Shown here: positions 5,523 to 26,700 of the stretch, piece after piece
Position numbering within the stretch: position 1 is the stretch's first letter
Layout of the letters: every line of letters begins with the position of its first letter
Assembly: GCA_947454705.1 (NCBI GenBank)
Contig: CANGKZ010000049.1
Coordinates: 1 to 35,956, forward strand
DNA: 35,956 nucleotides
Direction of reading: 5' to 3'
Source of the DNA: Verrucomicrobiota bacterium
GTDB taxonomy: Bacteria > Verrucomicrobiota > Verrucomicrobiia > Limisphaerales > UBA9464
The notes under the pieces: model-generated
Told to the model about the DNA's origin: nothing
What the model saw: only the letters and a program-made list of their open reading frames with translations
Database searches by the model: none
Made by a program: the position numbers and the translations under genes

Positions 5523-6207
5523 ACCCAAAAACGGCAGTTGAAGAGTTAAAATAGTTGAAGGGTTGAAGGGGAAAGCGGCCCCGCGGCGTGTCAACGCCGC
5601 GGTTTCGTCGATCGATAGGGCGACGCTGCCGCGAGCCGATCCTCCATACCGACCATCCCTCGAACCCAGGTAGGGCCAGAGCTGCCGCTCTGCCCCATCT
5701 ACAAAACGACCAGCCCCCGCGCCGTCGTTGCCCCCATTCATCCCCAACTGCCAACTCCCATCTCCTCCGCGTTCCGATCATCCAGCATCCCGCAACCGCC
5801 ATCGGCTCCCCCTATCTGCCAACTCCCATCTCCGATCCCCTCCGCGTCCCCTTCATCCAGCATCCAGCATCTCTCCGGAATCTCCGCCCCAGACCTCCCC
5901 ATCCAGCATCCAGCAACCGCCATCGGCTCCCCCTATCTGCCATCTCCGCCGCCGTCCCCCAAACTCCCAGCTGCCAACTCCCATCTCCTCCGCGTCCCGA
6001 TCATCCAGCATCCAGCATCTCTCGGGAATCTCCGCCGTTCCGGCGGCATTCCCGCCCTACCGCGATTTGAAGCTTGCGACGGGAGCGTCGGCCCCCTAAA
6101 CAACCGCCTCGCTTGACTCGACTTCCCGCAGCGAGGAAGGGGAAACAGCAACGAGAAGCGAACTGAACTGAAGATCAGTGCAGTGCAGAGTAGAGCAGAA
6201 CAGTGAC
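5523..6207. repeat. Intergenic repeat island (simple repeats, hairpins, minisatellite)
   Basis: No gene seen. 5533-5572 holds TTGAAGGG-type repeats. 5581-5602 is a perfect 9-bp-arm hairpin (CCGCGGCGT, loop GTCA, ACGCCGCGG). 5674-5696 is another hairpin (GGGCCAGAGC with GCTCTGCCC). 5727-6033 is a minisatellite on the minus sense built from a few words such as CATCCAGCATCCAGCA, CCAACTCCCATCTCC and GCTCCCCCTATCTGCC. The longer phrase at 5778-5832 recurs at 5902-5948, and that at 5749-5790 recurs at 5976-6017. The same phrases occur inverted near 13456-13560. 6034-6207 is unremarkable upstream DNA of the tRNA gene. Confidence 0.8.
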
Positions 6208-6282
6208 GCCGGTGTAGCTCAGTGGCAGAGCAACGGTTTCGTAAACCGTAGGTCGTCGGTTCAATCCCGACCACCGGCTCCA
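6208..6282 (+). tRNA. tRNA-Thr (anticodon CGU)
   Basis: All cloverleaf parts can be read: acceptor GCCGGTG pairing with CACCGGC, D arm GCTC/GAGC, anticodon stem ACGGT/ACCGT enclosing the seven-base loop TTCGTAA (anticodon CGT, decoding ACG threonine), a five-base variable loop, and T arm GTCGG-TTCAATC-CCGAC. The discriminator is T and CCA is encoded at 6280-6282. The body is 72 nt plus CCA. It stands alone, with no neighbouring tRNA. Confidence 0.95.
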
Positions 6283-7039
6283 GTTCGGAGCGGAAAGAGG
6301 AGGGAATCTCAATCACTCGGTCGATCCATGGCCTAAATCCTCATACTTCAGCCAGGACGCATCGCCCTCCCGACTCTTCCCTCGTCGTGGGACCGGATTC
6401 CCTTCTGGCCATACATCCGAAATGTCAAAAATATAGATCTACCCCCAGATGCCTCTATGGGAGGGTATCTGGGGTCACCCATTAGTGCGCGGGGTCAACA
6501 GGCAAAAAGTTAGCGGCTCCGATTTTTTCCGTCGGCTTCTTCTCGCCGCGAATTCGATCTCGGCGGCTGGATCAAACCAGGTATTTCCCGGGTTTGATTT
6601 CGAACCACTTCCCTTTTCAGGGGTGATTCGGTCAGTCACCCATCAGGTTCTAGCGAAACGCAGACGCTGCTTCCAGCGCCCACCCCTTCGCCCAATCCGC
6701 CTCGGCGGATCCAGAAAACAATCTGTGCCGGCCCGTGTTCATTCAGTTCTGAAGATCTGTGGATTCATCGGCGATAGGCGCCGGTGCCCAACCTCGGATG
6801 GACTCACAGGACGGTCGAATCACCCCACGAAATCTGGGGACAGCTGGGTCAGGTCTATACATTTGACATTTGAGCGGAGGATTCCGGAATTCCTCCGCTT
6901 TTTCCCATGGCAGACAATGCGCTGGGGTTTCGAAGCCAAGGCGACTTTTTCCGGTGGCAGATCGCCCGCCAAGGTTTCACGAGGGAGCCGACGTATTCGG
7001 GGAGGTGAACCCAATCGCCGGGGCAGGTTGTCACGAATG
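6283..7039. other. Gene-free decayed region with REP/BIME-like remnants
   Basis: No convincing gene; a 256-codon frame at 6449-7219 has no recognisable motif and overlaps repeats. Visible structures: an inverted repeat CCCCAGAT (6443-6450) / ATCTGGGG (6467-6474), a hairpin ATCAAACC (6571-6578) / GGTTTGAT (6591-6598), and two oppositely oriented copies of a short end sequence. One is GGTCTATACATTTGACATTT at 6852-6871. Its diverged reverse complement lies at about 6417-6446. The region between looks like relic DNA. Confidence 0.6.
6850..6994 (+). repeat. REP-like dispersed element, copy A
   Basis: About 145 bp that align with 7653-7797. It begins with ATTTGACATTTGAG, followed by a hairpin (GCGGAGGA 6874-6881 with TCCTCCGC 6891-6898), then TTTTT and a conserved tract starting near TGGCAGACAATGCG and ending GAGGGAGCCGACG. 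This copy lies just past the 3' end of the PEP-CTERM gene, copy B just past its 5' end, in the same orientation. A short end sequence plus hairpin is typical of REP units mobilised by REP-associated tyrosine transposases; no transposase is visible here. Confidence 0.6.
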
Positions 7040-7576
7040 TCATTGGTACCGATCCGACTCTCGACGCCCCCTCATCGCAAAGAGAAGTCCAAGAAGCATG
7101 CTGCCCCAAAACAACGGCCGCTCACCAGGCTCGGGGACATTGGTCGGAATAACGACCGTCCCCGAGAAGTATGCTACGGAATGCACATCGCGGGAGATGT
7201 CCCACAAATAGTTCGTTGAGATTTCACTATGCACCTGGAATTGCGTAGACACGTCCGAAAGCTGCAATCCGTTTCGCGAATCCCATGCCACGAAACTTAC
7301 GTACCCTGTAGATCCTTCGGCTAAAAACGGGATTGGGACTAAATGACCGGGAATCTTACCGTTGCTGAATTCGTATTTGACATTCAGGTCAATCATTTGA
7401 TCCGGGCTGGCGCCCGCGAACAATTCACAATAAATCCCTGACGCCGCCAATGGACCATTTTCACTACCAACCCGCACCCCAGGCGGCCCAACGATAAATA
7501 GAACCGCTCCTTCACCATGCGCGTTGGACAGCAAACTCGATGCGATACAAACGTGCAGGAACCCCTGCCTAGTCAT
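7040..7576 (-). CDS. Small PEP-CTERM exported protein, unknown function
   Basis: A predicted 178-aa protein from the ATG at 7576. It has a short secretion-like N-terminus (MTRQGFLHVCIASSLLSNA) and ends with a recognisable PEP-CTERM tag: VPEPGERP, a hydrophobic stretch (LFWGSMLLGLLFAM) and a basic tail RGRRESDRYQ. In the known system such tags are cleaved by an exosortase at the cell envelope. The middle resembles no family I can name. The frame stays open upstream: another ATG at 7630 is possible, but the stretch before 7576 lacks a signal-peptide profile. The gene is bracketed by two same-direction copies of a REP-like element. GC is lower than in carB or DUF2339. Confidence 0.65.
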   Translation of the reverse strand: MTRQGFLHVCIASSLLSNAHGEGAVLFIVGPPGVRVGSENGPLAASGIYCELFAGASPDQMIDLNVKYEFSNGKIPGHLVPIPFLAEGSTGYVSFVAWDSRNGLQLSDVSTQFQVHSEISTNYLWDISRDVHSVAYFSGTVVIPTNVPEPGERPLFWGSMLLGLLFAMRGRRESDRYQ

Positions 7577-7944
7577 TCCAGATAGAACGCGGGGTGTGAG
7601 TGCCGATCGACTTGTTCGAAGAATTACCATGCGAAGGGGCGTCTGGGGGGGCAGATCCATCCATTTGATATTTGAGAGAAGAGCTCCGGGATAGCTGCTC
7701 CTTTTCGCTCGTGGCAGACTATGCGTTTTGGTTTCGAAAACAAGGCAACGTCTTCCGCTGGCAAATCGCCGGCTTCGCCTGCGCGAGGGGGCCGACGGTC
7801 TTGATTCAGCCGGTGCGCTCGAGGAGGTGGACCAAACTTGGGGCCTTGGCGGATTCGGGTGGAAGGTGCATAAAGTGCGCGATGGCTTTGCGCGACGTGG
7901 TTCCGGACCGGCTGGAGTCGTGGAAAAGGCCGTCCTTCGCCCCA
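7577..7944. promoter_or_regulatory. Divergent intergenic region containing a REP-like element
   Basis: 368 bases between the PEP-CTERM gene (minus) and the exported-protein gene (plus). Most of it is REP-like copy B (7653-7797). 7833-7859 carries a 27-base segment beginning CAAACTTGGGGCCT that matches 9563-9589, upstream of the MauE-like gene, at 24 of 27 positions. No clear promoter hexamers were recognised. Confidence 0.5.
7653..7797 (+). repeat. REP-like dispersed element, copy B
   Basis: Diverged partner of 6850-6994: CCATTTGATATTTGAG (7660-7675), a weaker hairpin (AAGAGC pairing with GCTCCTT), then GTGGCAGACTATGCG and a tract ending GAGGGGGCCGACG. The hairpin sequence differs from copy A while a paired structure persists. 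In one forward frame both copies read similarly (ADNALGFRSQGDFFRWQIA against ADYAFWFRKQGNVFRWQIA), so the tract may derive from a short coding remnant. Confidence 0.55.
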
Positions 7945-8904
7945 ATGAGAACGCTACGAACTTCACTCGGTCGCCGTGGGTGGATCGCATTCACGCGGAT
8001 GGTGTGCTGCCTGGGGGCTTTGGCGGTTTGTCTCGTGAGCAGAGCCGCTGCGCCGGAGCCAACGGATCCGCTGGAATGGGTGAGGTGGTTCGTGATGGAG
8101 CGGCCCGAGGTGCAGCGCGTGGAGTTTGAGAATACGCTGCTGTTGGACCCGAAACAGGTTCCTGCCCGATTCCGGCGGCTTCTTCCCCAGACGGTTGATC
8201 GAACCGCGACCACGTTTTCCGGGCGGCGTTCAGGTGGGGACTTCATCGTGGGACCGGGAAGCTTCCTCCGGACTCAGCAGGGCACCAATCTCTCGCCGAA
8301 GCCGGACATGCTGTTCGGACGTTTTGGCGGAACTCCGTGGCAGTTGAGCCGTGAGATGCTCTACCTCTGCGTGACCGACGACGAGAACGCCAGATCCACC
8401 CTCGTTCCCGGCGAGAACCTCTCGCAGGCCCTCAACCTCGGAATTCCCAAGGCAGCCGGTCCACTGGCCTGGACCAACTCGACGCTGACTTTTTCTTCGG
8501 ATAGCCGGAACTACGTCTGCACCTGGTCCTCCCGTGGAAACACCGTTTACGGGGAACTAAACTCCAAGGACATGGACTTCGGCCATGCGGTGGAGATTGA
8601 GTTTGAGAAGCGGTTGAATCGGCTTCGCCCGGTGGAAGCCCGGGTGTCGGTCACCTTTCCCGAAGCCCTTGCGGATTCGAGTTCCAAAACCAATTCGGTC
8701 TCCCGGACCCCGTTGCTTCGCATTCGCTACCTGGACCTCCAACTCGCGGACACGAAGCTTGCGAGCGCGTTTCTGGATCCCAAACAACTTTGGGAGGCAA
8801 GGGGAGCGTACGTTATCATCTCTTCGAACCGCCTCAACTACCATCCCGATGTAAACGGAACGCTCCTCCAGCTGGGCCAAATCAAGAGAGACCGTCCGAG
8901 GTAG
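7945..8904 (+). CDS. Exported protein of unknown function
   Basis: A 319-aa product from the ATG at 7945. An N-terminal hydrophobic stretch (about residues 19-36, MVCCLGALAVCLVSRAAA) looks like a signal peptide ending near RAAA-P. The mature part begins EPTDPLEWVRWFVMERPEVQ and contains a long mixed alpha/beta stretch without a motif I know. The frame is open 91 codons further upstream, but that part covers a REP-like element and is unlikely to be translated. A start at 7999 (MVCCLGAL) is equally possible. The gene is followed by a minisatellite island. Function not assigned. Confidence 0.65.
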   Translation: MRTLRTSLGRRGWIAFTRMVCCLGALAVCLVSRAAAPEPTDPLEWVRWFVMERPEVQRVEFENTLLLDPKQVPARFRRLLPQTVDRTATTFSGRRSGGDFIVGPGSFLRTQQGTNLSPKPDMLFGRFGGTPWQLSREMLYLCVTDDENARSTLVPGENLSQALNLGIPKAAGPLAWTNSTLTFSSDSRNYVCTWSSRGNTVYGELNSKDMDFGHAVEIEFEKRLNRLRPVEARVSVTFPEALADSSSKTNSVSRTPLLRIRYLDLQLADTKLASAFLDPKQLWEARGAYVIISSNRLNYHPDVNGTLLQLGQIKRDRPR

Positions 8905-9640
8905 AAAACGGCGATCCGGAGGGGAAAGCCATTTGAACCGCTGATGGGGCGGGGAGTGGGGAGGAGATGGCAGATGGGAGATGGGAGATGGGGGGGATTT
9001 CGAAGATCGGAGATCGGAGATCGGAGATGGGAGATCGGGCTGAGGGGGCAGCGGGGAGATGGCGGTTGCTGGATGGGGATCTTCGGAGATCGAAGATCGG
9101 AGATGGGAGATCGTTCGGAAGGGGGCAGCGGGGAGGTGGCAGTTGCTGGGTGCTGGATGGGGATCTTCGGAGATCGAAGATCGCAGATGGGAGATCGATC
9201 CGCGGGAGGGCAATGCCCAATGTGGGCGCGGGTGACTTTTTACGTTCGGGTGATCCGCCTTCTTCCGGCGGCGGCTACGGGGAGGCAGATGCGGAGGCGA
9301 TGGCAGATGGGGGGCGATGGCAGATGGGGGGCGATGGCAGATGGGGGGCGATGGCAGATGGGGGGCGATGGCAGATGGGGGGCGATGGCAGATGGGGGGC
9401 GGGGATAGGACTCTGCCGTCCCAGCGGGACTCGATGGAATTGGCGTCCGTTAAACCCAGGCCTGAAGGCCTGGGCTAGTCTCGTTTGGAAAGGCGCTGAA
9501 AGGCCCGAAATACGCGGATTCTGTGAGCGGAGGTGTCTCCGGATCGCTCCCGAAAAACGCATCAAACTTGGGGCCTAGGCGAAATCGGGCCGATGCGGTA
9601 AACAATTGGGGAAGTACTCCATTCGCAACCGCTGCTAACG
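8905..9640. repeat. Minisatellite and hairpin island
   Basis: No gene seen. 8965-9030 is built from GGAGATGG/GGAGATCG words. Two imperfect copies of about 75 bp follow (around 9047-9112 and 9121-9190), each containing TTGCTGG.., GGGGATCTTCGGAGATCG and GAAGATCG. 9298-9399 is six exact tandem copies of a 17-bp unit, CGATGGCAGATGGGGGG. 9418-9430 is a hairpin GTCCC-AGC-GGGAC. 9455-9474 is a perfect hairpin, CCCAGGCCT-GA-AGGCCTGGG. 9563-9589 repeats the segment at 7833-7859. ORFs here merely read through the repeats. Confidence 0.85.
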
Positions 9641-10189
9641 ATGTCCCTTCTCGAAGCGAAACCGCTACCGAAGATTTCTGATCGGCTGGACCCGATTCAA
9701 AAGGGCGCGACTGCAGTTACCGCACTCGATGGGGGATGGGCGCTTCAGCTGTTCCTCCGGATCTCTGTGTGCCTTCTGCTTGCCACTGCGGCGGGCAAAT
9801 TCGGATCTGCGACGGGAAACTCCCGGATTCTCGATGAGAAGGATCCAATTCTTTGGTTTCTGTCCAATAGGAACCTCCTCCTCGTGACCGGAATCGCTGA
9901 ACTGTTGGTTGTATTCTCACTCTTATCGCTTCAGTCGATCTCGGCCCGGCTCTCGGTTCTATTGATGCTCTGCCTGGCATTCATCGGCTATCGGCTTTCG
10001 CTCTACTTGGGAGGATTCCCGGGCTCGTGCAAATGCCTCGGAATGATCACCGCGGCCATCGGGCTGAGTGACGAGACTTCAAACCGAATCTCACTTGGTA
10101 TTCTCGCATTTCTGTCACTGGGAACCGGATTCGGAATGATCGCGCTCAGAAAAAATGCAAGCAGCCACCCCAAAGCGGGTGATCTCTAA
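9641..10189 (+). CDS. MauE/DoxX-like redox-associated membrane protein
   Basis: A 182-aa protein with four predicted membrane helices (about 33-51, 78-98, 101-122, 149-168). A Cys-x-Cys pair (GSCKCLG, Cys130 and Cys132) lies just after helix 3. Size, helix count and cysteine pair fit the MauE/DoxX-like family. In methylamine dehydrogenase systems MauE helps form disulfides in an exported subunit. That role is known for MauE; for this protein it is inference. It heads a group with two cysteine-rich exported proteins (44-base gap to the next gene), which supports a thiol/disulfide role. No mau structural genes are present. GC is visibly lower than in flanking blocks. Confidence 0.6.
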   Translation: MSLLEAKPLPKISDRLDPIQKGATAVTALDGGWALQLFLRISVCLLLATAAGKFGSATGNSRILDEKDPILWFLSNRNLLLVTGIAELLVVFSLLSLQSISARLSVLLMLCLAFIGYRLSLYLGGFPGSCKCLGMITAAIGLSDETSNRISLGILAFLSLGTGFGMIALRKNASSHPKAGDL

Positions 10190-10233
10190 AAAGGGCACGA
10201 GTAAAGTTTCTCCGAAACCATCTTCAAGATTAG

Positions 10234-11292
10234 ATGACCACCCCAAGTCTCTCGAAGAGGAAGCGCGTCTGGTTTCTGATTCTCTCCCTATTCGGCATCG
10301 GATATTCGATGTCACTTCTTACCGCAGAGACTGTGGTGATCGAAGGAGTCTGTCGAAGGGTGCTCGTTAACACGAATCTACTACCCCATTTCAATGGCGC
10401 CACGCTCTCACCCGACGCGTTGGAGTGTCTGGTAAAATTCAGGTTGGAACTCGAAAAATGCAGTTGGATTTTGCGCAGTCGACACAGCGCGAATCGGTTC
10501 CAAACCGAGGAGACTTTCTTCTCGGATGGAGTGGACTGCTTCACGCTCATGACCGTCTCAACCAACCAGGCGGCAAGCATCACCAAAGGTCCAATTCCAG
10601 CGGGTGGAACCGGAAATCTTCAGACCATTTGGATGGCGCTTTGCCGTCCGATGTGCAAGCGACTTGACTGGCAAAGCTTTCGAGAACTTCCCGATCTGGT
10701 AGCGCTCCAGGAATTGAATCAAAGGCAATACGCCCAGGTTATCGCGACAACCAATTCCCTTGGGTACCTGACTCAACTCGAGCTGTTTAGGAGCGTTCGG
10801 ACAAATCTAGTGCTTGTTGAACGGTTTGAGTTTTCGGACTCGCAGGCAAAGATGGGTAGGTTCAGCGATTTGATAACCCGACAAAGCTTCGCTGTGGACC
10901 CGATTAAGGCCACGAATGTGGTTGCCTATCGATACGAAGTCGAAGTTTCGAACATCGTAACCAATTCGGGCCCATTGAAGCTGCCGGAATTAACATCAAT
11001 GGCCAGAATTGTTGATTTCCGCCTGAACCGGAGGGGATCTGAACGCTGGTATGTGGAATATGCTTCGAAAAAGTGGCGTTCGGAGTCCTATTTAAGGGCG
11101 GATCCCGAGATCGCTCTAAAAATCGAAGCAATGGAGAAAGATCAGGTCAGCTATGATCAGGTCATCGAGGGTAGAACCCGTCGGCAACGATTTGGCAGAT
11201 GGTTTTTCATTGGAGTACTGATCGTTCTGCCCGTGGCAATCTATAAGGTTAGGGATACACACAAAAATCAAAACAATACAAAGAATGCATAA
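10234..11292 (+). CDS. Exported, C-terminally membrane-anchored cysteine-containing protein
   Basis: A 352-aa protein not recognised from any family. Residues 11-30 (RVWFLILSLFGIGYSMSLLT) look like a signal sequence and residues about 322-341 (RWFFIGVLIVLPVAIYKV) like a C-terminal anchor followed by a basic/Asn-rich tail, so most of the protein would lie outside the cytoplasm. All six cysteines are in the N-terminal half (40, 65, 76, 102, 137, 141), the last two as CRPMC. The gene follows the MauE-like gene by 44 bases, and its stop overlaps the next start by 8 bases (ATGCATAA), suggesting translational coupling. Confidence 0.6.
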   Translation: MTTPSLSKRKRVWFLILSLFGIGYSMSLLTAETVVIEGVCRRVLVNTNLLPHFNGATLSPDALECLVKFRLELEKCSWILRSRHSANRFQTEETFFSDGVDCFTLMTVSTNQAASITKGPIPAGGTGNLQTIWMALCRPMCKRLDWQSFRELPDLVALQELNQRQYAQVIATTNSLGYLTQLELFRSVRTNLVLVERFEFSDSQAKMGRFSDLITRQSFAVDPIKATNVVAYRYEVEVSNIVTNSGPLKLPELTSMARIVDFRLNRRGSERWYVEYASKKWRSESYLRADPEIALKIEAMEKDQVSYDQVIEGRTRRQRFGRWFFIGVLIVLPVAIYKVRDTHKNQNNTKNA

Positions 11293-11755
11293 AAACATGA
11301 AGTCGGTCAAAAGAGTCAATGGAGCATTACTGAGTCTCGCCAAGTGCGCCGCGATCATTGGAACAGTGATTGTTTCAATTCATCCTCAGCAATTGGCTGC
11401 TGGGCTTGCATCATGTGGCTGGAAAGCCTCGTCGGTCACTAGAAGCATGAAGCCGTCGTGTGCCACGGGTTCGTACGATGATTGTTGGATCATGTACGCC
11501 TATTCAAATCCGGAGAGGACCATTCCAGTGACAATCTTTTCCGTCCTATCCAATCCTCTTGATTGGGTTGATTCGATCAAGGACGACAACAAGGATAGAT
11601 ACACGAAAGTTCGGGGATACACTTGTGACTGGGGGATTTTCTACAACACCTGCAACTGGAACTCACCTGATCCAACAGGAGCCCACGACGGAATTGAACC
11701 ATCACGGGCGAGACTTGTGACGCTCGGCAATTGCCAAAACAACGTTACCAAGTAG
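11285..11755 (+). CDS. Small secreted six-cysteine protein
   Basis: A 156-aa product from the ATG at 11285; a second ATG at 11297 would remove four residues. An N-terminal hydrophobic stretch (about 12-42) with Ala-rich end LAAGLAS suggests secretion. The mature part has exactly six cysteines (44, 59, 67, 114, 123, 150), many aromatic residues (CDWGIFYNTCNW) and several Gly/Pro/Asp turns, as expected of a small disulfide-stabilised domain. I do not recognise the fold. It overlaps the preceding gene by 8 bases and is followed by a terminator-like hairpin, so it is probably the last gene of the first transcript. It could be the client of the MauE-like protein two genes upstream. Confidence 0.6.
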   Translation: MHKNMKSVKRVNGALLSLAKCAAIIGTVIVSIHPQQLAAGLASCGWKASSVTRSMKPSCATGSYDDCWIMYAYSNPERTIPVTIFSVLSNPLDWVDSIKDDNKDRYTKVRGYTCDWGIFYNTCNWNSPDPTGAHDGIEPSRARLVTLGNCQNNVTK

Positions 11756-11776
11756 TCGAGCAAAGTTCAAAGCAAC

Positions 11777-11803
11777 CAGGGGCCTTCGATGAGAGGGCCC
11801 CTG
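11777..11803 (+). terminator. Hairpin terminator after the cysteine-rich gene
   Basis: CAGGGGCC (11777-11784) pairs perfectly with GGCCCCTG (11796-11803) around an 11-base loop. The following ATTGTTG is only moderately T-rich, so it may terminate incompletely. It lies 22 bases behind the stop of the cysteine-rich gene and 8 bases before the glycosyltransferase start, and could attenuate or separate the downstream gene. Confidence 0.6.
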
Positions 11804-11811
11804 ATTGTTGA

Positions 11812-13317
11812 ATGGACTTAAAAGCGACGATGGTTTTTGCCTCAAGAAGAAGTATTGGGTTGGGAGTGCTGGTGGCTTTGCTCAGCGCGATAGTTGGATG
11901 GAAATTCGACATCTTCCATGTTTACGAGTTTGGTGGAGATGAAGGGTATGAAGTCTACAAGGCCTTTTTGATCACCAAGGGGTATTTGCTGTACCGAGAC
12001 ATCTGGAATGACCAGCCGCCAATTCACACGTATCTGTTGGCGGGATTGTTTCGACTGTTTGGGCCATCAATTGGAGTTGCTCGGTGCGTTAGTATTTTTT
12101 CTGCCGGGGGAACTGCGCTATGTCTTTGGATGATTTCGCGACGCACTGTAGGACGATGCGCGGCGACGTTTGTCGTGCTCGGGTTCCTCGCGTGGCCAGA
12201 AGTCCTGATGCTTTCCGGATCGGCAATGTTGGAGATTCCGATGCTGTTTTTGACGACAGCAAGCCTTTGGCTTCTTGATCGAAGCGGTTCCCAGCAGCGG
12301 TTTCGAATCTTTGCAGCTGCGTCTGTCTTTGCGATAGCGGTGAACGTTAAATTCACTGCACTTCTTTTTGCTCCGTATCTGTTGTTTGAGTTGCGTCCCA
12401 CGTCCCAGTTTAAGCCTCGGCTAGGTGAAGGCTTTTCAATTCGCACTGATTTGTCCGAGTGGTTTCTACGGTGTGCGTTCTTCGGAGTATTCTTCCTGGG
12501 CGCTTGCGCTGTAATTTCGGTGTGTTGTTTCGAGAGAGAAGCGTGGGATGCGATTTTCAAATCACATTTCGCTCCGGTTTTTCCAGAGTTTCGAATTCAG
12601 GCAGAGCGATATCGTTTTTCGTGGGATTTGTTCGCTCCGGTTTGTGAGGTTGTCGCGATTGCCTGCGTTGGGGTTGTCTACGGGGGTGGCGAAAGAAGAG
12701 CGGCCAGTTTTTCGGCGGTTTTAGCCTTGGTTGCGTTGATTGCAGTGCACTCAACCCATCAGCCATTCTGGCAATACTATACGATTCATTTTTCAATTCC
12801 AACATGCCTGATCGCGGGAGTTGGCGTCGACTGGGCGGTTCATTGGATGTTCGCCAATTGTTGCCAGGGCCTTTCAAGGCTGACAGCCATTCGAGCGATT
12901 GGACTTTTGGTGGGGCTTTTGTGGGTTTCTGGTATTACCGCTTTCAATGTGGTTGAATTGATTCGGGAGGTTTCCTCGAGGCCCTTAGTTTCAACGGTGG
13001 CACTGGTTAAAAAGCTTCGGTCGGAAAGTGTCCCGGGGGAGGTTGTCTTTTCAGATCAACCGATTGTCTGTTTTTATGCCGGCTCGCTCATGCCGCCGGC
13101 GATTGCGGTGCTTCCGGCTAAGCGCTTTTGGTCAAAGCAGATATCTGTTCAGGAAATCCTGTCGGTCTTGCACAAGATCGATCCCAAGCGAATAGCAGTG
13201 TTCGGTCCGGATCTTCGGGAGGCGTTGCGGAAGAATCCTCCTCTGGGGATGCAACGAGACCAAAGTGAGATCAACATTGATTATTGGATTAGAGGGGAGA
13301 GCAACGTACGGAACTGA
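11812..13317 (+). CDS. GT-C (PMT_2 / family 39-like) membrane glycosyltransferase
   Basis: A 501-aa polytopic membrane protein. The N-terminal helix is followed by an extracytoplasmic loop with the acidic pair typical of GT-C enzymes (GGDEGYEVYKA, Asp43-Glu44), then GYLLYRDIWNDQPPIHTYLLAG, a common signature of ArnT/PMT-type transferases using polyprenyl-phosphate sugars. About ten hydrophobic segments are visible. The C-terminal 120 residues form a soluble domain (VPGEVVFSDQPIVCFYAGS...). The sugar donor and acceptor cannot be read from sequence. It directly follows the cysteine-rich exported genes in the same direction, so an exported protein or envelope glycan could be the acceptor (inference). 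An alternative start at 11830 is possible. GC is lower than in the flanking blocks. Confidence 0.75.
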   Translation: MDLKATMVFASRRSIGLGVLVALLSAIVGWKFDIFHVYEFGGDEGYEVYKAFLITKGYLLYRDIWNDQPPIHTYLLAGLFRLFGPSIGVARCVSIFSAGGTALCLWMISRRTVGRCAATFVVLGFLAWPEVLMLSGSAMLEIPMLFLTTASLWLLDRSGSQQRFRIFAAASVFAIAVNVKFTALLFAPYLLFELRPTSQFKPRLGEGFSIRTDLSEWFLRCAFFGVFFLGACAVISVCCFEREAWDAIFKSHFAPVFPEFRIQAERYRFSWDLFAPVCEVVAIACVGVVYGGGERRAASFSAVLALVALIAVHSTHQPFWQYYTIHFSIPTCLIAGVGVDWAVHWMFANCCQGLSRLTAIRAIGLLVGLLWVSGITAFNVVELIREVSSRPLVSTVALVKKLRSESVPGEVVFSDQPIVCFYAGSLMPPAIAVLPAKRFWSKQISVQEILSVLHKIDPKRIAVFGPDLREALRKNPPLGMQRDQSEINIDYWIRGESNVRN

Positions 13318-13844
13318 GGCATTTGGCCTCTTGGCGATGGCGACCTTGGGGGCTGAATCGAGGACGCTTTCTAAAGCGGTGGCGGTGTTCCGTTTTGGAG
13401 CGAGCGATTTTGATTCACGCCCTGTTGCGGGGGGAAGTGGACGGGGATGGGAAGGGGAACGCGGAGGAGATGGGAGATGGGAGTTGGCAGATCGGAGATC
13501 GATCGGAAGGGGGCAGATGCTGGATGGGAAAGGCGGGGATTCCGGAGAGATGGAGGATGCTGGATACAGGAATTCCGGGGGAGTTCGGAGGGCGGGAGGC
13601 ACCAGTGCTGGGGACGGTCGGTTTTTCCTCGAGGACGGTTTCGAAAGCGGTGTCGACGCTCCGCTCTGCCACCGCACTCCAAAAGGGGTGGCGATTTGTT
13701 TTGGCGCGGGTTTTTCCCCCGCCCAGTTGTGAGGGTTGGCGTGCTCCCGGAGCCGCGTGAACGCGGTACTACATACGAGCGAGGCGCTTTGATTCCCCTT
13801 CAACGCTTCAACTTTTTAACCCTTCAACGTCTTCGGCGGGCTAT
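13318..13844. repeat. Intergenic repeat island
   Basis: No gene seen. 13456-13560 is a minisatellite of GGAGATGGGAGTTGGCAG and GATGCTGGAT words; it repeats, in the opposite sense, phrases from 5727-6033. 13641-13684 is a hairpin unit (GCGGTG 13647-13652, CACCGC 13670-13675) nearly identical to those at 97-140 and 436-479. 13753-13766 is a small hairpin CCGCGT-GA-ACGCGG. 13797-13832 carries TTCAACCCTTCA-type simple repeats just behind the phosphatase stop. Confidence 0.8.
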
Positions 13845-15362
13845 TTACTTCGCGACGTCCACGTTGATGACCTTCACCCGCCAGTCAGCAATGTTCTTGG
13901 CGGTCTTCAGCAGGGCGAAGGTGTCGTAGTCGAATCCGTTGGCTTCGCCGTAGAGGCTGTCGGGCGAGATGTTGAGGGTCCACACGGATCCCGGAGGAAC
14001 GCTTCGCTCCGGGGCGGTTTCGAGGATGGATTCCAGCTCGCGCGTCGTTGCAGCGAATCGCGCGGTGGAATCGTCCTTTTGCCAGTGGCGAAATACACCG
14101 CGACCCGCCATGAGGCGTCGCATCATGGGATTCGGTGCGGAGGATTGCTGGTGTCCCCGGAACACGGCCTGGACCACGTTGGATCCGGTGCGCGTTTGCT
14201 CGAGGAGGTAGCGGGTCGTGGATTGGCCGTACACAAACGCCCGGCCTGGATCGATGGCGAAGCCGGGTTCATCGGAGACAAGCGTGAAGTCGTTCCACAT
14301 GAATCCCAGGGTGACGGGGTTGATAGGATCGACGGGCCGGAAATCCTGAGCGGTCCGGGTGTAGTCGGCACGGGCTTTGGTGTCGCCGGGGGCAAACCAG
14401 TCGGGATGCGTGGTGAGAAACTGACGTTGCGTGAGGGTGTCGATGAATTGATAGGCAGTGGGTCCGGTTGCCGTGAGCAGCGGGCGGGGATCGAATCCGG
14501 GTTCCATGCCGCCGTGGTTGCACTGAATATAATTCCCGCCGGTTCCAAGCCAGATCGCAACGGGCAGAAAATCATAGATCCGCAGCACCTTCACGGGATC
14601 GAAGTCGGCGCCATACTTCAGCCGGCCTTCGCTGAGAAAGCCGTAGCGGGCGGCGATCGACACTTCTTCGTGATTCCCGCGGGCGAGGTGGACGCGGTCG
14701 GGGTTGGCGAGCTTGAGTCGGAGCAGGGTGTAAAGGACTTCCACGCCGTAGGCTCCGCGGTCGGTGTAGTCGCCGAAAAACACGAGGTGGAACCGGGGCT
14801 TGAGGATGTCGAATCCGCGCAGGTATCCGTTGCCGTTCAACCACGCGAGGTCGGCGAGGAGGGATCGGATGTCGCCGTGGAAATCGGCGTGCATGTAAAT
14901 CTCGGCATTCTCCGGGAGTTCCACTTTTGCGGCGAAAGGTTGAAAGGGAATGGTCGGCGCGGTGCGCGGACCCCGGGCGGAGGCGAGGAAGTTTTCCAGA
15001 AGCGCGGACGATGGGGCATCGGGCGCGAGGAAATACGCGGTGCTGGTGTTGAAGAAGGCCTGGGCGGTGGGGGGAGTGCCGATCCAGCGGTTGGTCTGAC
15101 CGAGGGCTCCGGTGCGGCTTTGATCGGCGAAGGCGGAAAGCACGGTTCCGAATTCAGCGAAACGTGCAATGGGCAGCGTGCCAGCGGGCGGGACCGCGCC
15201 GCGGAGGCGACGGTTGGAGGGCATGCGTTGACAGGCCGCAACCCAGTCGTCGTACGAACGCATCGCGGGCGCGGGCGCCGGCGCGGGTTCGTTCTCCGCT
15301 GCAACGGCAACCGTGATTAACAGCAATGCGACCCAAAGCGGGATGAATCTCCACCGTGACAT
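13845..15362 (-). CDS. Exported PPP-type metallophosphatase
   Basis: A 505-aa protein with an N-terminal signal sequence (WRFIPLWVALLLITVAVAA) followed by a short Pro/Ala spacer. The calcineurin-like core shows the full PPP motif series: ADFHGDIR (about 159-166), GDYTDRG (about 197-203), GNHEE (about 228-232), CNHGGMEPG (about 280-288) and FRGHQQS near residue 400. These residues bind two metal ions and phosphate in PPP Ser/Thr phosphatases. A region of about 130 residues before the core (MRSYDDWVAACQRMPSNRR...) is unfamiliar. The protein should act in the periplasm or outside, so it is more likely a general or extracellular phosphatase than a signalling enzyme. It appears to be transcribed alone, between two repeat islands. 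Confidence 0.85.
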   Translation of the reverse strand: MSRWRFIPLWVALLLITVAVAAENEPAPAPAPAMRSYDDWVAACQRMPSNRRLRGAVPPAGTLPIARFAEFGTVLSAFADQSRTGALGQTNRWIGTPPTAQAFFNTSTAYFLAPDAPSSALLENFLASARGPRTAPTIPFQPFAAKVELPENAEIYMHADFHGDIRSLLADLAWLNGNGYLRGFDILKPRFHLVFFGDYTDRGAYGVEVLYTLLRLKLANPDRVHLARGNHEEVSIAARYGFLSEGRLKYGADFDPVKVLRIYDFLPVAIWLGTGGNYIQCNHGGMEPGFDPRPLLTATGPTAYQFIDTLTQRQFLTTHPDWFAPGDTKARADYTRTAQDFRPVDPINPVTLGFMWNDFTLVSDEPGFAIDPGRAFVYGQSTTRYLLEQTRTGSNVVQAVFRGHQQSSAPNPMMRRLMAGRGVFRHWQKDDSTARFAATTRELESILETAPERSVPPGSVWTLNISPDSLYGEANGFDYDTFALLKTAKNIADWRVKVINVDVAK

Positions 15363-15688
15363 GTGGGGGCAGTGTCGCCCGGGGCGGCGGGGTGGGGAAG
15401 GGGGAAGAGTGGGCGAGTGGGTGAGTGGGTGAGTGGGTGAGTGGGTGAGTGGGTGAGTGGGTGAGTGGGCGAGTGGGCGAGTGGGCGAGTGGGCGAGTGG
15501 GCGAGTGGGCGAGTGGGCGAGTGGGCGAGTGGAGGGGCGCGGCAGCGTCTTGGAGTGCGCCAGTCCTCTGGCGCTTTTGTTTGCCGGACGGGCGCTAAGG
15601 CCGACGCTGGCGTGTAAGGTTCGCTTCGGTTCGAAAGCGGTAGGGGACTACCGCAGTCCAAGACCTGGCGGACAGGGGGATGCCAGGG
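15363..15688. repeat. Octamer satellite plus hairpin units
   Basis: No gene. 15407-15532 is about 16 tandem copies of an 8-bp unit, GAGTGGGT or GAGTGGGC, with T-type copies first and C-type copies after. 15557-15574 is a hairpin (GCGCCAG, loop TCCT, CTGGCGC). 15637-15654 is another (GCGGTAG, loop GGGA, CTACCGC) inside a conserved frame running from TTCGAAA to CAGTCCAAGACCTGGCGGAC. The same order, octamer then hairpin, recurs at 17447-17560. Confidence 0.9.
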
Positions 15689-17371
15689 TTACTTCGAGAG
15701 CGGGGCCATGAGCTTGCGGTTCATGACGAGGGCCGAACGACTGTTGTTGAGCGCGGCGGTTCGGAACGCTTCGAACTTGGTGAGTTCTTCCGCGCTCAAA
15801 AATGAGGCACCCCGTGCCGCGACATTGGCGTAGATGCTGTCGAGCAGATGGAGGCTTTGCTCGGCCATCGATTCGGAGGCGATGTTGGCGAAGTTGAGCA
15901 TGGGGACGACCTGGTAATCCGCAGGGAGCCCAGCCGCCTTGAGTGCAGCGGCAGTCTCGGCCTGCATCGCTTCGCGGAGTTGACGCTGCTTCTCCTGTCG
16001 GGCCGGGCCTTCGCCCGAGAGGGAGGGCGCAAATTGGGCGGCGCTCAGGGTGCTGAGGAGATTCTGCGAGTAGTCGTTGTATTGCGCGAGGGCTTCGTCC
16101 CCCAGCAGCGCTTTGATTTTGCCCTGCAACTCCGCGTCGGCAGAGGCGAACAGTTGGGCCACCTCGGACTGCGATTTGCCGTCGCGCAGCGCCTGGGTGA
16201 TGAGGTCGATGTTGTCCATGACCGAGTCGGCAAGCAGGTCGTTGAACTTGCCAGTGACCTCCGGCTTGAGATTCAGCCGCTTGGCGAGTTCGCCGTACAC
16301 CGCGCTCATGCCCAGCTTTTGGGTTTCGCGCATGGCGTTGCGGGACGCTGGATCGGAGGTGATTTTGTTGAGGGCGCTCTTTTCTCCAGCCGCCCGGTTT
16401 TCCCGGATCAGCGAACCGACTTCGCCCCGCAGTTTCAGCAGTTCGGCCGGATTCCGCTTCGATTTGGCCACTTCCTCGGTGAGTGCGGCCACCCGATTGG
16501 TCGCGTGGTCGCGTTCCGCTTTCAATTGCTGCAGCTGTTCGGTCAGCGGGATGTGTTCCTGTTCCAGTGTGAGATTGCGGGCACGCAGCGCGGCGTTTTG
16601 ACGGACTTCATAAACGCTCACGCCGACGGCGGCGACCAGGGTGAGGACGACGAGTGCTTTCTGGGTGGTGGTCATGGCGAGGGTCTGAGTGGTGGCAGAA
16701 AGGGTGGCGGAGGAGGCTGTTGCGGATGCTGCGGTGCCGGCGAAGGCGGAGGTGAACACGGTGGACGCTAGGCCCGCGGGGGCGGCCTGGACGGCGTGGG
16801 AGGAGAGGACAATTCCGAGTCCTCCAGCGCCCACCATGACCCCGCGTTGGGCAAGAAACTCCCGCAGGCGTTCGATGGCCCGGCTGACGCGCTTTTGCGC
16901 CGCATCGTCCGAGGTGCCCAGAGTTTCACCGACTTCGCGCAGGGATTTGTTGGCGAAAAAGCGGAGAAGAATTGCCGAGCGGTCGGTTTCTTCGAGTGCC
17001 TGCATGGCTTCGTCGAGCAGCGGCTCGATTTGTTCCCACCCGGCTTCGGCGGAGTCTGTCGCATTCATCTTGGTGGCGATTTGCTCGCGCAGGTGGCGTC
17101 GGGCTTCTTGACGAACCACGTCGATGGCATGACGGCGTGTCACTTGATAGAGCCAGGCGGGAACGACGGTGGAGGGGGAGAATTCCTGCGCGTGCTGGGC
17201 GAGTTTCAGAAACACCGATTGAGCGACCTCTTCGGCGAGGTGGGACGAGCGGACCTGTCGGAGCGCGGCGGAATAGACGAGATCAAGGTGCCGACGGACG
17301 ACCTCCGCAAAGGCGTCCTCGGCTTCGTGCCGGGTGTAGCGCGCGAGCAGTTCCAGGTCGGTTTCGCTCAT
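15689..17371 (-). CDS. ECF sigma factor with membrane-anchored C-terminal extension
   Basis: A 560-aa protein. Residues 1-175 are a sigma-70-family ECF factor: region 2 (LLARYTRHEAEDAFAEVVRRHLDLVYSAALR, HLAEEVAQSVFLKL, VPAWLYQVTRRHAIDVVR) and region 4 helix-turn-helix (SLREVGETLGTSDDAAQKRVSRAIERL, about 143-170). Ordinary ECF factors stop near 190 residues. Here an Ala/Ser/Thr-rich linker (about 195-235) leads to a membrane helix (238-254, KALVVLTLVAAVGVSVY), a coiled-coil-like stretch (256-305) and about 250 residues of helical, Leu/Ala-rich sequence ending ALVMNRKLMAPLSK. No anti-sigma gene is adjacent, so the tail may take that role (inference). The start at 17371 precedes MSETDLELL; upstream frame extension runs into repeats. 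A palindrome (TCGGAATTCCGA) lies 26 bases upstream. Confidence 0.85.
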   Translation of the reverse strand: MSETDLELLARYTRHEAEDAFAEVVRRHLDLVYSAALRQVRSSHLAEEVAQSVFLKLAQHAQEFSPSTVVPAWLYQVTRRHAIDVVRQEARRHLREQIATKMNATDSAEAGWEQIEPLLDEAMQALEETDRSAILLRFFANKSLREVGETLGTSDDAAQKRVSRAIERLREFLAQRGVMVGAGGLGIVLSSHAVQAAPAGLASTVFTSAFAGTAASATASSATLSATTQTLAMTTTQKALVVLTLVAAVGVSVYEVRQNAALRARNLTLEQEHIPLTEQLQQLKAERDHATNRVAALTEEVAKSKRNPAELLKLRGEVGSLIRENRAAGEKSALNKITSDPASRNAMRETQKLGMSAVYGELAKRLNLKPEVTGKFNDLLADSVMDNIDLITQALRDGKSQSEVAQLFASADAELQGKIKALLGDEALAQYNDYSQNLLSTLSAAQFAPSLSGEGPARQEKQRQLREAMQAETAAALKAAGLPADYQVVPMLNFANIASESMAEQSLHLLDSIYANVAARGASFLSAEELTKFEAFRTAALNNSRSALVMNRKLMAPLSK

Positions 17372-23415: not shown

Positions 23416-23738
23416 AAGCGAGCGGTTGCCGTGCGGATCCCGAGAATGCCCGAGCGGGTGTTCTCCCCTGCAAATTCTCCGAGGGGGAAAACACCCCATG
23501 GAAGGATTCCTGTCGTGTCGCACAAGATCACGACACTACGCCGCAATGGAGTTCCACGTTTGAGGATTTCCATTGAGTCCCATGCCGGGGGGTGAAGCCA
23601 CCGGTGCTCTCCGAGTCAACCTGAGTTCCCTTACCCAAGCCTTTCTTGAAATCCTCAATTCAATCCGTTCCTCCGTCCGGCTTCGAACGCCAGCTGCGTC
23701 CGGTTCGGTCCGTCCGCAATTCTGCAGCTCAAACGAAG
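23416..23738. other. Intergenic region with strong hairpins
   Basis: No gene recognised. Besides the terminator-like hairpin at 23456-23496 there is an inverted repeat TGTCGTG / CACGACA around 23512-23536. The last 90 bases form an open frame joined to the giant gene but have no signal-peptide character. Confidence 0.5.
23456..23496 (+). terminator. Long hairpin after the DUF3494 gene
   Basis: GGGTGTTCTCCCC (23456-23468) pairs with GGGGGAAAACACCC (23483-23496) with one mismatch and a loop of about 14 bases. It starts 40 bases past the DUF3494 stop. The T-run expected of an intrinsic terminator is missing, so it may instead protect the mRNA end. Confidence 0.55.
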
Positions 23739-26700
23739 ATGCCTCTGCGCGTCGTTGAATGGCTTTTTCGGATGCTCTTGGTGACGGTGGCGTTGGTTTG
23801 GACGGATCGCACTCCCGCTCTGGCAGATCGTGTGCCTGCGAACTGCTCGGGGAGTGGCTTGGGGATCAACCTGTTCACCAGCATCCCGGACGTCCACGTG
23901 GGGGATCGGCTGTTCTACAGTGTCAACGTCTTCAACGGCATTCCTGGCAGCGGCCGGATTGTGTGTGATGCGACGGAGATCGATGCGTTCATCGTCACTC
24001 CGGACGGTAAGACCAACGTTGTTACGCTTCTGCGGCGCACGCTGCATCAGGGGGAATCTGACTTTTATCCCGACGTGGTCAGCTACGTGGTCCGCGCCCA
24101 GGACATTCAGGCGGATGGGACCATTCTCGCAACCGCGCGGGACATTGGCGTGATTCATCAAAACGATGTGAACAGCAGCGGCGGCGGATTCCAGGGAGTA
24201 AACACGCAAGTCAACGAGCCCTGCGTGCAAATATCAGCGCTGTGTGTGGGCGGAGTGGGGGAGACGGGTTTAATCACCTTCACCGGCAAGGTCACCAACT
24301 GCGGCAACACCACTTTGGTGGGGGTGACAGTCACCAATTTCGTGAACAACGGATCCTTCGTGGTTCTGTTTCCCACCAACCTGGCAGTGGGCCAGGTGGT
24401 GAGTTTTAGCGGCAGTTGGATTCCTGCCGTCTCCTGCATTCCCAGCGTGGCGGTGTTGACCGTTCGCGCGTCGGATGAATTCACCTCGACGCCCCGGCTG
24501 GTGACGAGCTCGGCAACCGTGGCCTGCCAGAATCTCATGACCCCGGGAATCCGCGTCACCAAGGAATGTCCTCCCGCGCCTGTTTCCCCGGGGCAGCTCC
24601 TCAGGTTTACCGGAAGTGTCAGCAACACGGGCAACATCACGTTGACCAACATTGTGGTTCTCAATGACCAACCGGTGGGCAACACGCCTGTGTTTACCCT
24701 CGCATCGCTCGCCCCGGGCGCGGTTGCCAAATTCTCCGGCAGCTATCCCGCGCCCACCAATTGCCTGGCCAGCGATACGCTGATCGCCCGTGCCTCTGGA
24801 TTGTGCGGCGGCGAGGTGTCCAGCACGGCATCGGCCACGTGCGCGGTTCTGACGACTCCCGCGATTGTGGTGACCCAGAATTGTCCGACCGGAAACGTCC
24901 TTCAGGGAAGCCTGGTGACTTACACCGGCTTGGTGAAAAACGTGGGCGATGTTCCGCTGACAAACGTGGTGGTGATGAGCGACCGGCCTGCGGTTGGTAC
25001 GGTGATCTTCACCCAGTTAAACCTCGCAGTGGGGGCATCCGCCGGTTTCACCGCAAGCTATTTGGTTCCGACGAATTGCTGCGTGGTTTCCGGTATAATT
25101 CGGGCAACCGCCCAGGGATGCGCCGGGGATTTGGTCTCCGATTCCGACACCCGGACGTGTCCGGTGATGACGACTCCGCGATTGATGATTTCAAAGATCT
25201 GCTCGCCCGCATCGGTGAAGCCGGGGGAAATTCTGAGTTACTCCGGCTCCATTACGAACGTCGGCAACATCACGCTCGTCCAGGTGGTGGTGAAGGATCC
25301 GATGGTTTCCAACGGAGTCCCAATTTTGGGGCCGATCACGCTCGCCCCGGGTGAATCAGCGGTGTTTGCGGCATCCATGCTGGTTCCGCAGGATTTCTGC
25401 GGGGACGCACCGCTGACGGTCAGCGGCCTCGACGTCTGCACCTTCCTGCCCGTGAGCAGTTCGGTGTCGAATCCGTGTCTGATCCAGACCAAGCCGCGGA
25501 TCGCTGTGACGAAGCACTGTCCGCTTTTGCCGACTGTACGGGGTGGGCTCTACACCTTTACGGGAACCGTCACCAATCCGGGCAATGTGACGCTGGTGAA
25601 CGTCTACGTGATGGACAACCAGCCCACCAACAACACCCCGGTTCTGGGACCGATCACCCTGGCTCCCGGTGCATCGATGGATTTCTCCGGCAGTTACGTG
25701 GCACCGGTTTGCTGCTGTCTGATCATCGATACCTTGACCGCGCGCGGACAGGACCGCTGCTCTGGATCAAACGTGGCATCCACGGCCACTGCAGTCTGTC
25801 CGCTGCTTTCCAATCCCGCGCTTACCCTGCTTCCGAACTGCCCGCCGAACCCGCTTGAGATGGGAAGTGTGTACTCGTTTAGCGGACGCGTGCTGAACTC
25901 GGGCGATGTGGTGCTGACCAACGTGTTTGTCTTCGGTCCCCAAGGCACCAACAGCCCGGTTCTCGGCCCGATTGAACTCGCACCTGGCGAATCTGAAGCC
26001 TACTCCGGGACCTACACCGTGCCGTTCAACGTGTGCTCCGTCGACGTCTCGGCTTCGGGTCGCGACACCTGCGGGGACAGCCTGGTCACTCGCGCCTCGG
26101 GATGTCCGGTGTCCACAACCCCCGGCTTGAGTCTGACGCAGATCTGCCCTCCCGGTCCGGTGTCACCGGGGATGCCGCTGATCTTCACCGGCACGCTCCG
26201 CAATTCCGGCAATATCACTCTCACCAATGTCGTGGTGCGAAACAGCATGACGGGAAGCGCCCCGCTTTTGGTGGTTCCGTCGCTGGATCCCGGATTCATC
26301 GTGAACTTTGGTGGAACGTTTTCCACGCCCACCAACTGTCAGGTCTTGAACGTCTCGACGGCGACGGCCCGCAGCCTTTGCGGAGTAGGCGTGACGAATT
26401 CCACCAGCACCGTGTGTCCGATCGTGACCACGCCCGGACTTTTAATCACGCAATCGTGCCCGATTGTGGCTACGTCGCCCGGCGGGTTGGTTCTTTTGAC
26501 CGGATCCGTTCGCAATACCGGTGACATCGCCCTGACCAACGTGGTGGTCGGCAACAGTCTGGCCGGAACCGCTCCAGTGCTGGTGGTCCCGACGTTGAAT
26601 CCCGGAGCGTCGATGAACTTCAGCGCGAGTTTCAGCGCTCCGACGAACTGTTCGGTGGTCAGCGTCTCGACGGCCACCGGCCAGAGTGTCTGCGGCGTGC

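Follow-up and report, generated by a model that had tools for sequence, protein, structure and literature searches.

A recurring cassette of a MauE-like protein, the exported protein ExpA and a small cysteine-rich protein in Verrucomicrobiota, with a possible role in maturing a hypervariable secreted protein

In the mau operon, MauE and MauD mature methylamine dehydrogenase, of which MauA is the small and MauB the large subunit. The Pfam family MauE is a four-helix membrane protein bearing a CxC motif. Here, we analyzed a four-gene cassette at positions 9641-13317 of contig CANGKZ010000049.1 (assembly GCA_947454705.1) of a Verrucomicrobiota bacterium from the lineage Limisphaerales; UBA9464. 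The whole contig (C49; 35,956 bases) is referred to as the window and belongs to a genome of 5.45 Mb in 80 contigs. As in the mau locus as generally known, a MauE-like membrane protein is encoded beside a cysteine-rich small protein and a larger exported protein, here named ExpA. The cassette differs from the mau operon in its glycan enzymes and its hypervariable small protein.

Protein O-glycosylation in the periplasm is carried out by PMT/GT39-type and PglL/Wzy_C-type enzymes, and Wzy_C also covers polysaccharide ligases and polymerases. PMT_2 and Wzy_C proteins are among the occupants of the membrane-enzyme slot of the cassette, which differs from these systems in that its acceptor is putative and its enzyme accompanies a redox protein and a single small gene. 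In glycocin-type ribosomally synthesized and post-translationally modified peptides (RiPPs), the precursor is the substrate of a soluble glycosyltransferase acting in the cytoplasm. This class was rejected for the window, where the small protein has a hydrophobic Sec-type leader and the glycosyltransferase is a multi-helix membrane protein. According to a 2020 paper, mauE homologues are present in three candidate RiPP families of Streptomyces, and disulfide formation is the speculated role of MauE (PMC7794033). The cassette shares with those clusters, which are thought to modify a small peptide, the MauE homologue; it differs from them in its Sec-type leader, anchored ExpA, membrane glycan enzymes and phylum. 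A search of the open-access literature (titles and the beginnings of abstracts, many listings being off subject) returned no description of such a cassette. The combination is new in that it matches no system found, and each enzyme activity is of a known kind; we know of no system with this set of genes.

The four genes of the window cassette and their recurrence in relatives

Gene calls throughout are the longest open reading frames (ORFs), and helices were assigned by a hydropathy threshold, not by a trained predictor. The features of the cassette are as follows.

9641..10189, + strand: MauE-like membrane protein, 182 amino acids, four predicted helices, CKCLG (CxC) motif, weak Pfam MauE match
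10234..11292, + strand: ExpA, exported protein with a C-terminal membrane helix, 352 amino acids, unannotated family, leave-one-out profile E 4.1e-9
11285..11755, + strand: small secreted protein with six mature cysteines, 156 amino acids, start at 11285 or at the in-frame ATG 11297
11777..11803, + strand: strong RNA hairpin without a T run, between the small-protein gene and the glycosyltransferase gene
11812..13317, + strand: GT-C membrane glycosyltransferase of the PMT_2 type, 501 amino acids, DE and WNDQPP motifs, Pfam PMT_2 match above the cut-off

The first-pass annotation of the window had placed four genes on one strand with gaps of 44, -8 and 56 bases, and the same spacing was obtained here. 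With ATG 11297 as the start of the small gene, the ExpA-to-small gap becomes +4 instead of -8. The first gene had been called a thiol-redox-type membrane protein, which agrees with its four hydrophobic segments and the CKCLG motif at residues 130-134, both characteristic of the MauE type. Its match to Pfam MauE (PF07291) reached E 2.9e-5 and 24.8 bits, below the curated cut-off of 27. Two paralogues in the same genome scored 19.8 and 19.5 bits, also under this value, and a third, fused one gave no match at E 0.1. Because the scores stay under the curated cut-off, we use the label MauE-like and not MauE. In an alignment of 23 cassette MauE-like homologues, C132 and G134 are invariant, and K53, E87, Y117, R118 and C130 are at least 90% conserved.

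A search with the window MauE-like protein revealed three further MauE-like genes in its own genome. An exported protein and a GT-C enzyme adjoin all four genes, and a small cysteine-rich protein adjoins three of them. The copy on contig C11 has the order exported protein, small cysteine-rich protein, MauE-like protein and GT-C. On C5, a 602-amino-acid ORF starts as MauE and continues as the exported domain, and it is followed by genes for a small cysteine-rich protein, a GT-C enzyme, a prepilin-type protein and a second GT-C enzyme. The C23 copy encodes an exported protein, a MauE-like protein, a PIG-V-type GT-C enzyme and an acyltransferase; a small protein was not seen there. Only the C23 enzyme among the GT-C proteins of these three copies scored above its Pfam cut-off; those of C5 and C11 are 31-36% identical to it.

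A conserved neighbourhood in relatives had been set beforehand as the test of the cassette, and it was found in the own genome and in relatives, together with gene fusions. A profile of the four own MauE-like proteins detected 41 places in 18 of 58 genomes (own included). The 35 stretches that were fetched (L-numbers are the labels of fetched locus stretches) covered all 37 places outside the own genome. In total, 41 ORFs were scored, the own four included; the L051 place, with three stops, gave none, L061 contributed one extra weak ORF, and MauE-like ORFs lacking partners were kept. In this count, for which the GT-C profiles were partly built from the same loci and the small-protein and helix criteria, not so built, were yet written after the loci had been seen, a small secreted cysteine-rich protein lay within 3.5 kb on the same strand at 25 ORFs and a GT-C enzyme at 21, with none on the opposite strand in either case. 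Over the same distance, an exported protein with a C-terminal helix was found at 30 ORFs (opposite strand, 5), and a protein of at least 350 amino acids with at least five helices at 30 (opposite strand, 3). The exported protein, the small protein and GT-C were all present at 13 of the 41. A separate scan led by the glycosyltransferase yielded 30 named loci, seven with MauE and six with ExpA (L076, L080, L085, L089, L093 and L096); five of the seven MauE ORFs had a small cysteine-rich protein nearby, and five had ExpA nearby.

For an independent test, 40 neighbourhoods were chosen by ExpA, namely the best-scoring place in each of 39 further genomes, which were taken by rank of score, and the third own copy. 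L137-L140, which are contigs already in the profile, were set aside, so that 36 loci were scored. On the same strand, MauE was found within 4.5 kb at 21 loci, a small cysteine-rich protein within 3 kb at 15, a prepilin at five and a match to the GT-C profiles at one. Without L141 and L151, which are close to training loci, the first two values are 19 and 14 of 34. Around ExpA ORFs outside the training set (L141 counted), a small cysteine-rich ORF lay within 300 bp in 16/44 cases on the same strand, compared with 0/44 on the opposite strand. Of 52 ExpA ORFs with MauE within 3 kb, 33 had a protein of at least 350 amino acids with at least five helices encoded over the same distance on their own strand, and none of the 52 had one on the opposite strand; such a protein was near only 2 of the 20 ExpA ORFs without MauE (other strand, 1). 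Of 33 pairs of ExpA and small gene, for which the start nearest to +5 was chosen when several were possible, 27 were spaced by -4 to 35 bases and 13 overlapped by exactly 4 bases; after removal of the duplicates L137, L138, L140 and L141, the values are 23 and 11 of 29.

Eight ORFs fuse MauE to ExpA (L007, L067, L069, L071, L080, L141, L142 and L158; L141 nearly duplicates L069). Leave-one-out searches recovered the ExpA portions of L007, L067, L069 and L071 at E 1e-12 or better. In L007, a leader-like hydrophobic stretch is retained between the halves, which fits, as we infer, a topology with both MauE ends inside and ExpA outside. The L049 ORF joins MauE (E 2.7e-6) to a membrane enzyme with the DE and WNDQP motifs of PMT_2-type enzymes, which is itself part of the alignment defining them. 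The recurring gene association is well shown and goes beyond chance.

The block was also said to be less GC-rich than its neighbours, and this was borne out: its GC content is 0.48-0.53, versus 0.60-0.61 in the left flank (7501-9500) and 0.61-0.66 in the right flank (13501-16500). A second dip, to 0.545-0.567, occurs further left at 6001-8000. The mean GC content at third codon positions (GC3) of MauE and ExpA was below that of the outer ORFs (at least 200 amino acids) in 31/31 measurable loci, with a mean difference of 0.165, although 12 loci had one outer ORF only, the difference was at most 0.03 in L057, L064 and L071, and L141 and L151 are not independent. Taken together, the recurring neighbourhood, the fusions and the lower GC3 fit acquisition as a unit, which had been suggested from low GC and flanking repeats; the composition part of that suggestion stands, and the repeats, as described below, do not support it. 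The four own copies did not cluster in a tree of 75 MauE-like domains, with four changes, at least two of which are forced by well-supported branches (bootstrap not settled). They look as if acquired or kept separately and not freshly duplicated.

Three locus types deserve separate mention. L061:3501-18170 holds three cassettes in tandem on one contig, with differing small proteins. In L040, L045, L048, L050 and L053, a sister arrangement was seen, consisting of a small cysteine-rich protein (not always adjacent), another exported protein of 284-321 amino acids with CxxCW in four of the five, a MauE-like protein and enzymes; L040 has a weak GT1 match and a prepilin, and L045 a 710-amino-acid O-antigen-ligase plus transglycosylase protein. 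L074, a contig of a metagenome-assembled genome labelled Akkermansia muciniphila, perhaps a mislabelled bin, carries MauE, small cysteine-rich, prepilin and GT-C genes.

ExpA, the small secreted proteins and the membrane enzymes

The window ExpA has hydrophobic segments beginning near residues 12 and 321, and it matched no Pfam or NCBIfam family. It had been described as an anchored exported protein with six cysteines; the six are present in the window protein, while other ExpA ORFs have 1 to 12, and the number is not a family feature. An ExpA profile was built from 22 exported proteins. In leave-one-out searches, the window protein was recovered at E 4.1e-9, whereas L049 failed (E 9.7) and L061b was weak (9.8e-4). 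None of 28 ExpA members matched Pfam below E 0.05 or NCBIfam at 0.01. With about six candidates scored per genome, which makes copy numbers lower bounds, 83 of the 293 genomes of the order, the own one among them, had a profile match at E 1e-5 or better. In 288 genomes drawn from the phylum, ExpA occurred in the own genome and in 1 of the 287 others (E 6.7e-10). ExpA is an unannotated protein family nearly confined to one order.

A PDB search gave no sequence match for ExpA. VIA-align was run over the Foldseek candidates for the low-confidence model of the ExpA relative L089, and LolB ranked first (Z 10.3, 3.8 A, 148 residues), followed by LolA (Z 10.2, 3.7 A, 148 residues), a DUF1329 protein (Z 10.1), apoB (9.0) and, with values of about 8 and less, designed or porin barrels. 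The LolA/LolB superfamily is characterized by an open beta-barrel with a helical lid, and on this modelling, ExpA likely has a LolA/LolB-like open barrel. It differs from the LolA/LolB carriers, with which the modelled relative would share its fold, in having no PDB sequence match, a C-terminal membrane helix and another gene neighbourhood, and lipid binding is putative. A third own ExpA gene (L176:5917-7290, contig C5), in which the genome search read one TAG inside the match, lacked a recognizable MauE or small-protein neighbour. Shorter relatives in L159, L163 and L173 (frames of 320-329 amino acids) have no MauE nearby, and their match stops before the C-terminal helix. A further group of exported proteins, "ExpB", was rejected as a single family after leave-one-out on ten members, in which only L061c was clear (E 8e-8) and L058 reached 0.14. 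Similarly, ORF 7672-8904 was rejected as a second exported part of the window cassette (leave-one-out E 230).

The window small protein contains seven cysteines, six of them beyond the hydrophobic leader, which agrees with the six mature cysteines originally counted. It gave no Pfam match better than E 0.15, and homologues were absent from 194 other genomes of the order. In relatives, the slot next to ExpA is often taken by other cysteine-rich secreted proteins. From the cassettes, 44 small proteins were gathered by hand; Pfam returned one weak EGF-like match (E 0.006) and none for the others at 0.01. The mature cysteine count is even in 34 of the 44 (p 1.9e-4, where some proteins are homologous pairs and the minimum of six slightly favours even counts), and the last cysteine lies within seven residues of the C-terminus in 42. 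Ser and Thr make up 19.5% of the small proteins, compared with 13.8% of ExpA. A common six-cysteine scaffold was rejected as evidence, as shuffled sequences align equally well.

The fourth window protein had been annotated as a membrane glycosyltransferase, and it matched Pfam PMT_2 at E 4.3e-12 with 47 bits (cut-off 26.1). An acidic motif in the first outer loop characterizes GT-C enzymes. In eight aligned cassette GT-C enzymes, D43, E44 and W65-P69 are invariant. The enzymes seen in the cassette slot comprise PMT_2, PIG-V-type, GT87, Wzy_C and OpgC proteins, with GT2 and GtrA as neighbours. Among ten enzymes from ExpA-chosen loci, Pfam identified three Wzy_C (two with a transglutaminase core), one OpgC, one GT87 and one GT2 protein. 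GT-C is not a fixed part of the cassette, and other glycan enzymes can replace it. GT-C seems to be one option in an exchangeable position, with MauE, ExpA and the small protein as the core. In L143 and L154, O-antigen-ligase-type proteins with an added transglutaminase core adjoin the MauE and ExpA genes.

Proposed maturation of the small protein and competing explanations

With moderate confidence, we regard the locus as a modular cassette that has apparently moved between genomes and would serve to produce and mature a single exported protein, hypervariable and rich in disulfides. On the best reading, its products would assemble in the membrane into a complex that folds this protein oxidatively and probably glycosylates it, a chemistry which we infer. 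Export, disulfide maturation and glycosylation of the small protein had been proposed in the first-pass annotation, and the analysis supports that proposal in part. The hydrophobic leader, the even cysteine counts and the conserved CxC motif lend indirect support to export and disulfide formation. Glycosylation is perhaps to be added, with the small protein as putative acceptor; the indications are the recurring membrane glycan-enzyme slot and the Ser/Thr-rich product. The enzyme families of the cassette use lipid-linked sugars. Together with the Sec-type leader, the CxC motif and the anchored carrier, they suggest that folding and glycosylation would occur in the periplasm.

In the proposed mechanism, the small protein would exit through its Sec-type leader. 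ExpA, anchored C-terminally and perhaps forming a LolA/LolB-like cup, would keep hold of either the still unfolded product or a lipid-linked sugar on the outer side of the inner membrane, and the MauE-like protein would form the disulfides via its CxC motif. A membrane enzyme acting on lipid-linked sugars (GT-C here, other types elsewhere) may then glycosylate the product or an associated pseudopilin, and the matured product would work at or beyond the cell surface. We tentatively entertain an extension of this idea to a serotype-like surface system, a possibility somewhat doubtful at present, in which each exchangeable cassette combines a hypervariable protein held together by disulfides, the ExpA carrier that belongs to it, a redox protein of the MauE type and a lipid-linked glycan enzyme open to replacement. 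If this is true, trading one cassette would change the surface-coat protein and the sugar together, much as O-antigen or capsule loci allow for polysaccharides alone.

Several observations weigh against the maturation reading. The first CxC cysteine is absent from 2 of the 23 MauE-like proteins, and MauE is absent within 3 kb of ExpA in 20 of 72 cases. The two GT-C profiles match just the one ExpA-chosen locus in 36. Of the ten membrane or neighbouring enzymes from those loci, four have no Pfam family; in a second set of ten, one was above the PMT_2 cut-off, the others being TPR, DUF4015 and weak matches, with three giving none. The structure model of the window ExpA is poor (predicted local distance difference test, pLDDT, 44.1; six sequences), and the fold assignment depends on the L089 model (pLDDT 60.7), for which the Foldseek search of the PDB gave a best E of 0.021 with unrelated folds on top. 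Cysteine columns conserved at 90% or more number four in the small-protein alignment with the settings of the control, versus 3-5 in 20 shuffles, and six with the aligner's own settings. The strong hairpin at 11777-11803 divides the last two genes of the cassette.

The link to pseudopili is a serious rival, to which we give a rather low probability. Here, the product would be a prepilin-type (DUF1559) protein, the small cysteine-rich protein its partner or tip, and the glycosyltransferase would modify the pilin. A prepilin-like ORF lies within 2.5 kb on the same strand of 18 of 80 MauE ORFs (opposite strand, 1/80; near-copies counted), which leaves 62 MauE ORFs with none, and Pfam N_methyl and DUF1559 were confirmed in all three prepilin-like proteins tested. 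The closest relatives of the window MauE-like protein adjoin prepilin, GtrA-like and GT-C genes with no ExpA or small protein seen, a point that also counts against the maturation reading; for the window cassette itself, no same-strand prepilin motif lies within 4.5 kb. An antagonistic or bacteriocin-like module, with a secreted antimicrobial and with ExpA or the MauE-like protein acting in immunity or export, would account for the hypervariability of the small product, the presence of several divergent copies in one genome and the patchy spread, and would recall the mauE homologues of the candidate Streptomyces RiPP families (PMC7794033). We judge it unlikely. Against it, a PADLOC search for defence systems with 10 cassette proteins gave no match, the 44 small proteins produced the single weak EGF-like hit, and no dedicated exporter was recognised among the four genes of the window cassette.

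It is quite improbable that the genes are unrelated cargo which merely co-resides in low-GC surface-glycan islands with no common function. The departure in composition at 31/31 loci and the frequent absence or swapping of components would be expected then; the gene fusions, the 4-base overlaps and the strand-specific association (0/44 and 0/52 on the other strand) would not. Very doubtful, finally, is a Mau-like redox enzyme, in which the small cysteine-rich protein and ExpA would be periplasmic oxidoreductase subunits with a protein-derived cofactor matured by MauE, and the glycosyltransferase would be incidental. The formal trio of the mau locus (larger exported protein, cysteine-rich small subunit and MauE) is present, but Pfam found no MauA match in the 44 small proteins and no MauB match in the 28 ExpA proteins (this search covered those cassette proteins, not the remaining genome), the low-confidence model of the ExpA relative is nearer LolA/LolB than a propeller, and hypervariability is untypical of an enzyme subunit.

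If the maturation reading is true, the cassette defines a module for protein maturation, one part of which, the ExpA family, has no annotation and occurs in 83 of the 293 genomes sampled from the order. It would offer a testable role for MauE-like proteins beyond methylamine metabolism. The 44 small proteins collected would be natural examples of disulfide-rich exported proteins that come with their own folding factors and perhaps glycosylation factors.

Flanking features and other sites in the window

The neighbouring phosphatase gene is present in three sister genomes with 80-82% protein identity. Past it, other genes follow in two of them (L186 and L188), and the contig ends in the third; the cassette was not seen at this site in the sister genomes, and neither was a clean junction. 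No plasmid match was found for the cassette, and no phage search was made. The left-side repeat of the window matches 44 places across the own genome, and the flanking repeats were therefore rejected as a mobile-element mark of the cassette. Located between genes, they are dispersed and tandem repeats of a purine-rich GGAGAT type (8963-9401 in the window and the 44 genome places). Transfer RNA genes lie 5' of three of the four own cassettes (window:6208-6282, L006:10706-10780 and L008:5942-6027). Given that such a gene was seen in 5 of 77 other loci, about chance by a guess for which no background was computed, tRNA proximity was rejected as a rule.

The hairpin at 11777-11803 was not among the terminator-like entries listed for the window. 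The fold of 11753-11815 has an energy of -29.8 kcal/mol (z -5.66), and none of 200 shuffled sequences was as stable. It could act as a transcript attenuator or stabiliser. Elsewhere in the window, 23646-31121 is an ORF of 2491 codons carrying 69 cysteines.

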